From: a beta proteobacterium MWH-UniP1
GTDB taxonomy: Bacteria; Pseudomonadota; Gammaproteobacteria; Burkholderiales; Burkholderiaceae_A
Direction: 5' to 3'
NCBI GenBank assembly: GCA_036362785.1
Contig: CP143625.1
Span: forward strand, 249,401-313,400
Length of the DNA: 64,000 nucleotides
In this document: piece after piece, positions 1,283-48,820 of the stretch
How the letters are laid out: each line of letters starts with the position of its first letter
How positions within the stretch are numbered: position 1 is the stretch's first letter
Program-made: the position numbers and the translations under genes
Notes under the pieces: generated by a model
Database searches by the model: none
What the model saw: only the letters and a program-made list of their open reading frames with translations
What the model was told of the DNA's origin: nothing

Positions 1283-2330
1283 CCAGCATTTCTTTTAATC
1301 TGTAGAACGCATCTAACGTTTTAATGTTGCCACCACGGTGATCCACTAGCCCATATCCGGGTGCGACCAATTGGTGCCAGTAGACACGAGCCACCACACC
1401 GGATTGTTGGGCAATCCGAAGGTAATTCAACATATAGCGCTGGTATTGCTCTTGTGAGACACACTCGGTTTCACTGGTGGGCGCATAGGGCGCAGTGCCT
1501 TTTAGTGGCCAGTTAACCTCGGTAATGTAGGCTCCCTTGGTTTTAACCTTCTTGGACAGTACGCTCAAGCTGCTCAGCAAGCGCATCTTCCGGTCTGTAT
1601 CAAAAAAACCATATTGCTTGTTGGTGGGTGAACCCATGCGATCAACATACAGCAGCGCTGATAGGCGGTCGAATACCACCCCGGACTGATTAAATAGCGC
1701 ACGAATTGTGAAGTGGTATTCGAAGTCGATGACGGCCGGACCGATCAATCGATAGGTAGAGAATTCGGTATCGCGAATCGCCTGCACAGTCTTGAAAAAG
1801 GCAAGGTACTCCTGAACTGAAAAGAAACCCCATTTCATGCGATTAATCGCGTTACCCACTTGAAATTCATCTGAAATGCCAGAAAATGCAGCGAAAATAT
1901 GGCGAATATTTTTTTGAAGCAAGTCCGGATTTTCAATATGCTCGCGGTCTTGCAAAATATTAATCAGCACGGTCTTGTTGCGCTGCTTGAATTCAGAGGC
2001 AAATTCAAGGTAGGCAGTTATGTTGCCAATATCCCAGAGCGGAACCCGGATCAGCACATGCTTCACGCCAAGCTCGTCAATTAAATCAGCCTGGGAACCG
2101 CCTTTATCAAGATTGACCCCCATACCAACGAGGTCCCGCATCGCAACAGCCGGTTCTTTTGGCTTGCTCAATGCCATATGAACAAGCCCCGCGGGAAATA
2201 CCGCTGCAGATGTTGCCAGCATTTTTAGGAAATCCGGCAGGTATCGCAGTCGCATGCGCCGCTTAAAAGCGTTGTCACGAATGATCTTGGGCTGATCAGA
2301 GAACTCATCCCACTCAAACGGGGGCATCAC
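1266..2330 (-). CDS. Glycoside-hydrolase-like (TIM-barrel) protein of the polysaccharide cluster
   Basis: The 354-residue protein resembles clan-A glycosidases in its late strand motif ITEVNWP (269-275, candidate nucleophile Glu271). A GNAINR motif (159-164) sits where such enzymes usually have Asn-Glu, so the usual acid/base Glu appears replaced by Ala. A hydrophobic stretch near 38-53 could be a membrane anchor or uncleaved signal. Its start overlaps the stop of the GT9 gene by 4 bp, so the two are co-transcribed. A role in trimming or sensing a surface glycan is inference; no family name is certain. Confidence 0.6.
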   Translation of the reverse strand: MMPPFEWDEFSDQPKIIRDNAFKRRMRLRYLPDFLKMLATSAAVFPAGLVHMALSKPKEPAVAMRDLVGMGVNLDKGGSQADLIDELGVKHVLIRVPLWDIGNITAYLEFASEFKQRNKTVLINILQDREHIENPDLLQKNIRHIFAAFSGISDEFQVGNAINRMKWGFFSVQEYLAFFKTVQAIRDTEFSTYRLIGPAVIDFEYHFTIRALFNQSGVVFDRLSALLYVDRMGSPTNKQYGFFDTDRKMRLLSSLSVLSKKVKTKGAYITEVNWPLKGTAPYAPTSETECVSQEQYQRYMLNYLRIAQQSGVVARVYWHQLVAPGYGLVDHRGGNIKTLDAFYRLKEMLANPAG

Positions 2331-3262
2331 GATAGCAGCTCCAGCATGGCAGCTTCGATTGTGTTGTAAGTATCTGCAGAGTAATCGGCACTCAGCATAA
2401 AGTTGCGCTGTCTTTGCGGCTCACTAATCGTGGCCCATCTGCGGCTGCTGGCAAAGACACTAGCGCCAAAAAAAGAAAGGGTTGGGGTGTTGACTGCGCC
2501 TGCAAGATGCATCGGGCCGGTTGAGGTACTGATAAAAAGCCGACTCTCGGCAAGAATTTGGCAAAATTCCATCAGGCTAAGCTTGCTTTGCAATAGCGTT
2601 GCGGGGAAGTCCAAGTGGCTTTGAATCCAGTCATGGCTTGCCTGGTCATCGGGCCCAAAGGTGAACATGACTTCCATTCCAGGGATTTCGGCTGCCCGCC
2701 TGCCAAGCCGAAGATAGTCTTCTAGCCGGATATTACCGTCACTGCTCCCCCCAAACCCGGGGTGTAACACCACTCGGTTTTTGGGGCTAAGATTTTCAAA
2801 CTGGATAAGCGGTGGGGCAAATTCGAACTTCTGGTTTGGGAATAGCCCAGCGCCAAGATCGATGTTGTAGCGCCACTCTGTTTTTTCGACATGGCTGCGC
2901 CGCTGTGTAACGGTAGCGTTGAAAAACAGCTGCGCAAACTTTGTGGCGGGGGCAACGCGCTTCGGAATGCCGGCCCGCCAAAGTAACCAACCCAACCGAC
3001 TATCAATAAAGCAGCTAATGCTTGCATCAAACTTTTGCTGCTTAATCTGCCGAAGCGTCTTGTCAAAATCGGCATCCAACAGAATTACATCATCAATAAA
3101 GTCAAGTTCTTTAGCAAACTCAAAGTTTACTTTGGAAACAAGCACCGCAAGATAAATATCCGGGAATGCTTCTTTAATTGCTTTGCACAGGGGAAGTGCC
3201 AGCACGAAATCCCCGATTTTATCGTGGCGAGTGATCAGTAGCCGTTGAACTGTCGGGGTCAT
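2327..3262 (-). CDS. GT9-family glycosyltransferase (heptosyltransferase-like)
   Basis: 311 residues with the layout of ADP-heptose:LPS heptosyltransferases. The N-terminal LLITRHDKIGDFVLALPL is the usual acceptor-side start, HPGFGGS (167-173) follows the linker, and STGPMHLAGA (247-256) is the sugar-nucleotide loop. Such enzymes act on the cytoplasmic face of the inner membrane, adding heptose to the lipid A-Kdo core. It is translationally coupled to the downstream glycosidase-like gene and lies 52 bp from the GT2 gene. The family is solid; whether it is a WaaC, WaaF or WaaQ type, or uses another sugar, cannot be decided here. Confidence 0.85.
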   Translation of the reverse strand: MTPTVQRLLITRHDKIGDFVLALPLCKAIKEAFPDIYLAVLVSKVNFEFAKELDFIDDVILLDADFDKTLRQIKQQKFDASISCFIDSRLGWLLWRAGIPKRVAPATKFAQLFFNATVTQRRSHVEKTEWRYNIDLGAGLFPNQKFEFAPPLIQFENLSPKNRVVLHPGFGGSSDGNIRLEDYLRLGRRAAEIPGMEVMFTFGPDDQASHDWIQSHLDFPATLLQSKLSLMEFCQILAESRLFISTSTGPMHLAGAVNTPTLSFFGASVFASSRRWATISEPQRQRNFMLSADYSADTYNTIEAAMLELLS

Positions 3263-47298: not shown

Positions 47299-47643
47299 AT
47301 GACATTCAAACGATCATCTACTCATCTCGCTGGCGTTGGACTGTTACTTGCCACTTTTGCATTGGGTCTTGTGATCTGGGTCGCTGTTCAATCAACCCGC
47401 ACCGAACCTTTACCCACACTCGTCTGGGCCACCGGTGTACCAGACGGGCAGATCATGTCCGCGGGGCCGGTTGTGCTGGATCGGCTGGGGGCGGGCTGGT
47501 GGTGGGTCTACGCGACACCGCAAGACCGCCACGCCCTTCGGTCGTTGGGTGCCCAATTGGCGCTCGCCATGCCCACCCCACTTGCCCAAATGGCGGGCTG
47601 CTCGGTGCCCGCAGCCAGTGGGGCGGCCAATCTTCCACAATGA
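47299..47643 (+). CDS. Hypothetical single-anchor protein
   Basis: 114 residues. One hydrophobic segment near 11-31 then a short polar domain with WWWVYATPQDRHAL. No family recognised. The reading frame precedes rsfS by 44 bp and may be co-transcribed. A coding region is likely but not certain. Confidence 0.5.
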   Translation: MTFKRSSTHLAGVGLLLATFALGLVIWVAVQSTRTEPLPTLVWATGVPDGQIMSAGPVVLDRLGAGWWWVYATPQDRHALRSLGAQLALAMPTPLAQMAGCSVPAASGAANLPQ

Positions 47644-47687: not shown

Positions 47688-48356
47688 ATGAATATCGACA
47701 AACTCCAACGCATCGTTATTGACGCCCTGGAAGACATCAAGGGCCAACATATTCTGGTCTTTGATGCCCAGCCCATTACATCCATGTTTGACCGCGTGGT
47801 GATTGCCAGCGGTACCTCCAACCGGCAGACCCGCGCGCTTGCGAAGAACCTGCACGACAAGGTGAAGGCCGCAGGTGGCTGGGTCAATGCGATTGAGGGC
47901 GATGAAACTGGCGAATGGATTCTGGTGGACTTGGGCGATATCGTGGTCCATATCATGCAGCCCGCGATTCGTGATTACTACCGGTTGGAAGAGATCTGGG
48001 GCAAGTATCCGATCGACTGGGAAAAGATGCACAAGGGCAAACGCTCGGCTGCCAAGAAAGCGGCCGCGAAAAAATCTTCTGGTAAAAAGTCTGGAGCTAT
48101 GGCGGCCAATGAGTCTGGTGCTGATGCGCCGAAGGTGAAGGTGTCTGACACCAAGGAATCGAAACCTAAGGTTGCGGCAGCGAAGAAGCCTGCTGCCAAA
48201 AAACCAGGTTCAAAGACTTCCGGTGTTAAAAAACCTGCGGCTAAGAAACCAGCGGATAAGAAACCTGCCGGCAAAACGCCCGCTGCGAAAAAATCGCCTG
48301 CGAAGAAACCCGCCGCAACCAAATCCCCAGTAAAGAAGCCTGCCGCTAAAAAGTGA
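47688..48356 (+). CDS. rsfS: Ribosomal silencing factor RsfS with a long Lys/Ala/Pro tail
   Basis: 222 residues; normal RsfS has about 110. Residues 1-115 are the full domain (IVIDALEDIKGQHILVFDAQ, VIASGTSNRQTRALAKNLHD, LGDIVVHIMQPAIRDYYRLEEIWG), which binds uL14 and blocks subunit joining in starvation. Residues 118-222 are a disordered basic tail with many AAKKP/PAKK repeats, like histone H1 tails. A palindromic repeat in this tail is read VSDT at 152. rlmH overlaps by 4 bp. In many relatives rsfS follows nadD; here it does not. Confidence 0.92.
   Translation: MNIDKLQRIVIDALEDIKGQHILVFDAQPITSMFDRVVIASGTSNRQTRALAKNLHDKVKAAGGWVNAIEGDETGEWILVDLGDIVVHIMQPAIRDYYRLEEIWGKYPIDWEKMHKGKRSAAKKAAAKKSSGKKSGAMAANESGADAPKVKVSDTKESKPKVAAAKKPAAKKPGSKTSGVKKPAAKKPADKKPAGKTPAAKKSPAKKPAATKSPVKKPAAKK
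48140..48152. repeat. Palindromic repeat core in the rsfS tail
   Basis: Exact GGTGTCTGACACC, read V-S-D-T at residue 152, within the low-complexity basic tail. Confidence 0.9.
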
Positions 48357-48820
48357 TTCTGGTGCTTGCGGTCGGCCAAAAGCAGCCCGCCTGGGTCGAT
48401 CAGGTCTGCGCAGATTTCTTGGGTCGATTCCCAAAGGCGGATGCGGTTACCCTAAAAGAGATCAAAGCGGAAGTCCGCAGTAAAACCAAATCGGTCGCGG
48501 CACTGAAAGAAGACGAGGCCCAGCGTATCGAGAAAGAAATCCCGGCGGGTGCGGCGGTGATCGCTCTGGATGAGCGTGGCGAATCACTCACTACCGAAGC
48601 CTTTGGCCAGTTGGTCGATAAATATAAGACCCAATTCGGCAAGATGGTTTTTCTGATCGGCGGGCCAGACGGACTGGATGACCGATTAAAAGCCAAGTGC
48701 CACTATCAACTGCGGCTATCGGCCATGACCCTGCCCCATGGGCTAGTGCGGGTCATGTTGCTAGAGCAGCTGTACCGGGTGTGGTCGATAGCGAAGAATC
48801 ACCCCTATCACCGGGCGTAG
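48353..48820 (+). CDS. rlmH: 23S rRNA pseudouridine-1915 N3-methyltransferase
   Basis: 155 residues, the usual size of the SPOUT enzyme RlmH. LIGGPDGLDD and LRLSAMTLPHGLVRVMLLEQLYRVWSIAKNHPYHRA are its knot and C-terminal motifs. It methylates m3-pseudouridine 1915 in helix 69 of assembled ribosomes. Starts at a GTG/TTG-like codon within the rsfS stop, so translationally coupled. Confidence 0.96.
   Translation: MILVLAVGQKQPAWVDQVCADFLGRFPKADAVTLKEIKAEVRSKTKSVAALKEDEAQRIEKEIPAGAAVIALDERGESLTTEAFGQLVDKYKTQFGKMVFLIGGPDGLDDRLKAKCHYQLRLSAMTLPHGLVRVMLLEQLYRVWSIAKNHPYHRA

Follow-up and report, generated by a model that had tools for sequence, protein, structure and literature searches.

A long lysine-, alanine- and proline-rich tail on the ribosomal silencing factor RsfS of a beta proteobacterium and its occurrence in other Burkholderiales

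What could a long basic tail do on a ribosomal silencing factor? The question is raised by the rsfS gene in a stretch of 64,000 nucleotides (the window) of the genome of the beta proteobacterium MWH-UniP1. Its product has 222 residues, against 105 to 152 residues in the solved non-mitochondrial RsfS chains, and the difference is due to the tail. The sequence-only reading of this locus had counted 110 residues of domain and 100 of tail, which is right within the domain border; we set this border at residue 106 and find 106 plus 116 residues.

The RsfS domain and its gene neighborhood

The features concerned are as follows, in window coordinates.

47299-47643, forward strand: open reading frame of 114 aa immediately 5' of rsfS; by eye, it seems to include a membrane segment
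47688-48356, forward strand: rsfS open reading frame, ATG start, 222 aa
47688..48005, forward strand: RsfS domain, residues 1-106 (PF02410, TIGR00090, uL14-contact residues)
48006..48353, forward strand: basic tail rich in K, A and P, residues 107-222, with a five-residue period of KKPAA-like units
48353..48356, forward strand: 4-nt overlap (GTGA) between the rsfS stop and the GTG start of rlmH
48353..48820, forward strand: rlmH, 23S rRNA pseudouridine-1915 methyltransferase (PF02590, NF000986)

In profile searches, residues 9-104 match PF02410 (RsfS) with 100.1 bits (cut-off 21.6) and residues 8-104 match TIGR00090 with 107.7 bits (cut-off 56.9), and this RsfS is the single PF02410 match in the whole genome of 2,049,113 bases. 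The residues E70, W77, D81, R95 and Y98 are all kept at the same numbering; in an alignment of 40 RsfS the first four never vary, and conservation of Y98 reaches at least 90%. The uL14-binding or most conserved residues of RsfS include Glu70, Asp81 and Tyr98 according to PMC7125091, and W77, D81 and R95 according to PMC3400551, in the excerpts available of both. In the AlphaFold2 model, made from the alignment of these 40 RsfS, the mean pLDDT per block is 94-98 over residues 1-110. The best Foldseek match of the model is 2id1_A (E 4.3e-14), 6sj6_9 is also found (E 8.8e-11), and the matches include 9ss4 and 6sj6, which are structures of RsfS on ribosomal subunits. The excerpts of PMC7125091 describe that docking of RsfS on uL14 stops joining of the 30S subunit, and one of its figure legends has uL14 and RsfS shown with helix 95 of 23S rRNA and bL19. 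With its uL14-contact residues kept, the window RsfS domain most likely still docks on the 50S subunit, beside rRNA. What it shares with RsfS/YbeB/Iojap is the whole domain, these contact residues, the predicted fold and the rlmH neighbor.

The latter lies directly 3' of rsfS, as expected of an RsfS gene, and scores 154.3 bits against PF02590 (cut-off 27) and 186.6 bits against NF000986 (cut-off 141). The rsfS stop and the rlmH start of a same-genus relative likewise overlap by 4 nt, in the sequence ATGA. In the sister genus, rlmH is on a different contig from rsfS in the seven genomes having both; none of the eight draft genomes of a third genus of the family (G018-G025) gave an rlmH (PF02590) match, and seven of them gave rsfS. 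The usual upstream neighbor of rsfS is nadD. The 114-aa open reading frame found at this side in the window matches no Pfam or NCBIfam profile, and a tblastn search of the same-genus locus L003 did not find it.

Composition and origin of the tail

The 116 residues of the tail comprise 35 K, 26 A, 13 P, 1 R and 7 D/E and carry a net charge of +29, against -4 for the RsfS domain alone. Basic residues at a spacing of five form 26 pairs (z 6.8 against 400 shuffles), and KK doublets are not enriched in the tail (12 against 9.9, with 460 of 2000 shuffles equally high). At its densest the tail has 8 K in 20 aa, a maximum that drops to 7 in the K/A/P part, and no run of lysines is longer than two. The AlphaFold2 block means are 82 and 68 over residues 111-130 and then 52-70, and the tail is predicted to be disordered apart from a helix at residues 111-127.

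The tail had been described as histone-H1-like. This holds for its composition and for the five-residue basic period, but not for membership of the curated histone-like families, as its scores stay below the cut-offs of PF07382 (HC2; 21.5 against 40 bits), NF038053 (Burkholderia-type H1-like; 23.8 against 80 bits) and NF038052 (18.7 against 135 bits). When the tailed RsfS of three relatives are compared to HC2, that of L196 passes (43.2 bits), that of L140 fails (37.8 bits) and that of L261 gives no match. Richness in K, A and P, five-residue units with two basic residues and variation in length are shared with Hc2 and the H1-like proteins of Bordetella and Burkholderia (PMC2848022, in part); here, however, the sequence is appended to another protein, scores below the cut-offs and has one Arg among 36 basic residues.

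Other proteins of the genome harbor similar stretches. The pattern KK[PAST]AAK occurs at 18 places, against 2 for a reversed-pattern control: 4 in this tail, 9 in a free H1-like protein, 3 in a sigma-70 factor, 1 in an HU-family protein and 1 in a short protein, which we take to be bL35. The H1-like, sigma-70 and HU-family proteins are encoded outside the window.

L149:1342-1803, at about 1843.7k of contig C1, reverse strand: free H1-like protein, HC2 with 46.4 bits against a cut-off of 40
L169:1-1890, at about 1769.5k of contig C1, reverse strand: sigma-70 factor, PF03979, PF00140 and PF04546 over cut-off
L168:1162-1794, at about 1469.8k of contig C1, reverse strand: HU-family protein, PF00216 with 42.9 bits

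The places in the sigma-70 factor lie N-terminal to region 1.1, in a long segment of, by eye, more than 200 K/A/P-rich residues. In the HU-family protein, which has a K/A/P-rich N-terminal extension of about 40 residues, the single place lies before the HU-family domain. The gene of the free H1-like protein is adjoined by an open reading frame (1932-3179) that looks, by eye, like the small chain of ribonucleotide reductase.

At the DNA level, Tandem Repeats Finder identifies one 15-nt unit in the tail (2.6 copies, 87%). Repeated 4-residue peptides of the tail (57 pairs) differ by 0.63 nt per codon, against 0.64 after codon shuffling, a value equally low in 117 of 300 shuffles and, in a second run, in 37.5% of 200. 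The synonymous codons are as mixed as shuffled ones, and the tail repeats are therefore not a fresh DNA duplication; judging from these codons, the five-residue pattern is kept, or built, at the protein level. The same test on the free H1-like gene gives 0.36 against 0.50 when shuffled, with none of 300 shuffles as low, pointing to duplication of its repeats at the DNA level. Recent microsatellite-like growth is thus rejected for the rsfS tail, given the one short unit and the negative codon test. Over the 37 long basic tails of the survey presented below, 23 were testable and 5 appear recently duplicated (L024, L027, L184, L213 and L326); microsatellite-like growth stays a candidate for these five. 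A recent origin of the tail by capture of the free H1-like gene is also rejected, because a tail-only search of the genome gives weak matches to that gene (E 0.0025 and 0.33), because the H1-like protein mixes K and R (52 K, 11 R, against 35 K and 1 R in the tail) and because the duplication signal is seen in the codons of the H1-like gene and not in those of the tail.

With regard to a phage origin, fourteen phage-labelled records match the query, none of which covers 80% of it, and among the ten phage matches listed the RsfS domain alone is matched. One phage-labelled record of 4.9 kb (MT838762.1) has an RsfS domain 61% identical to that of the window and is probably bacterial DNA in a phage preparation.

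Distribution of basic tails among RsfS

In the family of MWH-UniP1, 26 genomes were surveyed and RsfS was matched in 16. Absence of the tail from close relatives, which the sequence-only reading had named as the result that would speak against it, is not what we observe: basic tails are present in both RsfS of the same genus and in all seven of the sister genus. The two same-genus tails, including that of the window, have 116 and 45 aa on domains that are 84% identical; both are net-positive, and the shorter one is K/A/P as well. The net-positive tails of the sister genus have 25, 25, 40, 82, 86, 119 and 145 aa, and the tails of the third genus have only 0-15 aa in all seven matches. The tail is therefore present in close relatives but labile in length, even between near neighbors. 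RsfS was unseen in five of the seven genomes of the genus; four of these five are without rlmH and the fifth has only an end piece of it. Since rlmH is missing or incomplete as well, we consider an assembly gap at this position in the drafts more probable than loss of the rsfS gene, and set the latter aside.

These relatives also bear on an artefact of annotation or assembly, by which the tail would be made by a frameshift or a read-through. Low-complexity DNA is error-prone in general, but the separate same-genus record (L003/L023) has the same kind of tail, with its own stop overlapping rlmH, and basic tails are found in all the sister-genus matches and long ones in other Burkholderiales families; such an origin is hardly credible.

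At the level of the order, a long basic tail was defined as one of at least 40 aa, with at least 20% K+R and a net positive charge. The order search gave 393 matches, part of which were listed by E-value; from this list 30 loci were read as given and 80 more were picked, mostly one per genus and some for their long frames; all 16 own-family matches, 32 of 38 and 38 of 40 matches of two other families, and 3 more were also read, the unread matches of those two families having frames of 98-134 aa. Altogether 199 Burkholderiales RsfS of 40 family codes were read (189 in a first table and 10 later). Long basic tails are present in 37 of these 199, a non-random draw that does not give a population frequency, and they occur in 9 of the 40 families; 23 of the 37 have at least 60 aa. 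By family, the long basic tails among the RsfS read are as follows.

f30, which we take to be the Burkholderiaceae in the narrow sense: 21 of 32
f1, the own family: 7 of 16
f48: 2 of 2
f21: 2 of 2
f4: 1 of 38
f9: 1 of 3
f15: 1 of 3
f19: 1 of 8
f37: 1 of 5

The search for the tail in other RsfS, proposed at the outset, has thus revealed similar tails on other Burkholderiales RsfS, which the sequence-only reading did not mention. The basic tail on RsfS is real, recurrent and not unique to this genome.

The tails are heterogeneous. Of the 37 long basic tails, 19 show the basic period of five at z above 2 and 18 do not. The usual order after the domain in f30 is KPVRVKL-like residues, an acidic stretch and a K/A-rich end of a few to about 100 residues, and 8 of the 21 tails counted as long and basic in this family have only 40-50 aa with an acidic part. 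A KPVRVKL-like stretch directly follows the domain in most RsfS of both f4 (L211-L240, L386-L393) and f30 (L183-L210, L384-L385); in one family it mostly continues with LLPQS-like residues, in the other with the acidic stretch and the K/A-rich end. Among the first 189 RsfS, 7 have tails of at least 40 aa that fail the threshold (L050, L064, L118 with 147 aa and 19.7%, L198, L200, L203 and L219), and the 135 tails of 5-39 aa are net positive in 101 cases, neutral in 16 and negative in 18. Of the ten read later, both from f30 (14 aa) and one of the eight from f4 (23-30 aa) have net-positive tails.

A tree of the domains from the first 189 RsfS needs 14 changes of the long-basic label, against a mean of 34.2 in 200 shuffles (lowest 29); the tree is rough (106 columns, 87 of 185 inner branches open) and the 14 changes are approximate. 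By this count, the long basic tails are clustered on the tree, yet would have been gained or lost several times. A class-wide draw of 140 genomes gave 135 matches, 133 of them outside the order, and 1 of these 133 has a long basic tail (L261, 74 aa); 57 were read, and the remaining 76 were assessed from open frames no longer than 139 aa, two of which run into contig ends. Beyond the class, the phylum contributes 108 matches, and 5 of these, all of family code f209, have long basic tails; 65 of the 108 were read and the others assessed from frames that do not exceed 144 aa. Three RsfS elsewhere in the phylum (L298, L343 and L344) have long acidic tails with 38-50% D/E, and two of these (L343 and L344) share family code f209 with the lysine-rich-tailed RsfS.

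Such a distribution could be expected from nearly neutral drift, in which a C-terminus tolerant of length would gain low-complexity K/A/P repeats in prone lineages and have no specific role. The lability of tail length among near neighbors, the same kind of stretch in unrelated proteins of the genome (the sigma-70 N-terminus, the HU-family and H1-like proteins), the acidic tails that some RsfS have instead elsewhere in the phylum and the recent duplication in 5 of 23 testable tails are all consistent with it. However, the strong five-residue charge spacing with randomized codons in the window tail, its use of K 35 times and R once, and the concentration of tails in one order (37 of 199 in a biased draw, against 1 of 133 elsewhere in the class) argue for something more than drift, which we regard as unlikely, though it deserves serious consideration.

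Possible functions of the tail

Folded domains with an H1-like or lysine-repeat tail that binds nucleic acids are known from AlgP, PhaF, HupB and actinobacterial TopA (PMC9239181, PMC5676037 and PMC7398561, in part), the lysine-rich tails of HupB and TopA stabilizing their DNA complexes (PMC5676037), and Hc2 has RNA affinity and represses translation (PMC2848022). By analogy, nucleic-acid binding by the RsfS tail is plausible. AlgP, PhaF, HupB and TopA are linked to DNA, whereas RsfS is a ribosome factor, so rRNA would be the likelier target. The parts of the open-licence literature that were searched hold no description of a basic tail on RsfS, which is weak evidence of novelty.

The reading that we prefer, with a probability of about 0.45, is that the tail is an electrostatic anchor steadying RsfS on the rRNA of the 50S subunit. 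The folded domain would dock on uL14 and keep the 30S subunit off, and because this docking site is beside rRNA, the mostly disordered polycation of KKPAA-like units would most readily lie, loosely, along the nearby 23S rRNA. Non-specific charge attraction could then help RsfS to find and hold the 50S subunit at low RsfS levels or high salt; both the rRNA contact and a longer stay on the subunit would follow from this reading. It is supported by the charge of +29 on the tail against -4 on the domain, the predicted disorder, the five-residue pattern free of a trace of recent duplication and the long basic tails in 9 of the 40 Burkholderiales family codes read. Against it, E. coli RsfS, a tail-less chain of 105 aa, binds the 50S subunit, and tail length changes fast (116 and 45 aa in the same genus, 0-15 aa in the third genus). 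The recent duplication in 5 of 23 testable tails, the five-residue signal at or below z 2 in 18 of 37 and the 8 of 21 f30 tails that are short (40-50 aa) and partly acidic also speak against an anchor.

Alternatively, the tail could tether idle 50S-RsfS or free RsfS to the nucleoid, in the manner of AlgP, PhaF and HupB. Peptides of KPAA repeats bind to DNA in vitro, granule spacing depends on the AlgP tail (PMC9239181, in part), stable DNA binding by HupB requires its tail (PMC5676037), and the other K/A/P proteins of the genome include the HU-family protein and the HC2-type H1-like protein, both presumably DNA-binding. The published partner of the domain is nevertheless uL14 on the 50S subunit, where the nearest polyanion is rRNA, and a DNA tether is improbable.

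Polyphosphate may be considered as another ligand: in starvation the tail would bind it, thereby releasing or gathering RsfS and tying silencing to the polyphosphate level. Lysine-rich stretches of the ribosome-linked E. coli proteins YihI and RNase R bind polyphosphate (PMC12345225, in part), as do those of Pseudomonas aeruginosa EngA and SrmB (PMC12077175, in part), SrmB counting nine K over 20 aa, AlgP is associated with polyphosphate granules (PMC9239181), and the RsfS tail reaches 8 K in 20 aa. In the P. aeruginosa study, however, InfC (five lysines) and FadB (seven) tested negative, and the positives had four consecutive K (PMC12077175). With runs of at most two K and a maximum of 7 K per 20 aa in the K/A/P part, the RsfS tail is therefore borderline; RsfS has no occurrence in the main text of PMC12345225, PMC12077175 or PMC9239181. 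Polyphosphate binding seems to us slightly less probable still than the DNA tether. The thermal stability of Cupriavidus necator RsfS shifts between full and low-nitrogen medium, with text and legend disagreeing on the direction and no mention of a tail in the excerpts (PMC12576926, in part). In a wider and quite speculative version, which we hold to be very improbable, the tail of Burkholderiales RsfS would be a starvation sensor that binds accumulating polyphosphate, or nucleoid DNA, and moves RsfS and the 50S subunit into a stored, phase-separated or nucleoid-held pool. If true, this would be a second silencing switch, missing from the tail-less RsfS of E. coli.

The silencing factor RsfS is widely conserved, and its solved non-mitochondrial forms are too short to include a tail of this kind. 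Should a polycationic tail be present in many Burkholderiales, silencing in these bacteria may differ in affinity, in place or in regulation, and the natural long-tailed, short-tailed and tail-less RsfS with similar domains offer a direct way to find out what a disordered basic tail contributes to a ribosome factor.
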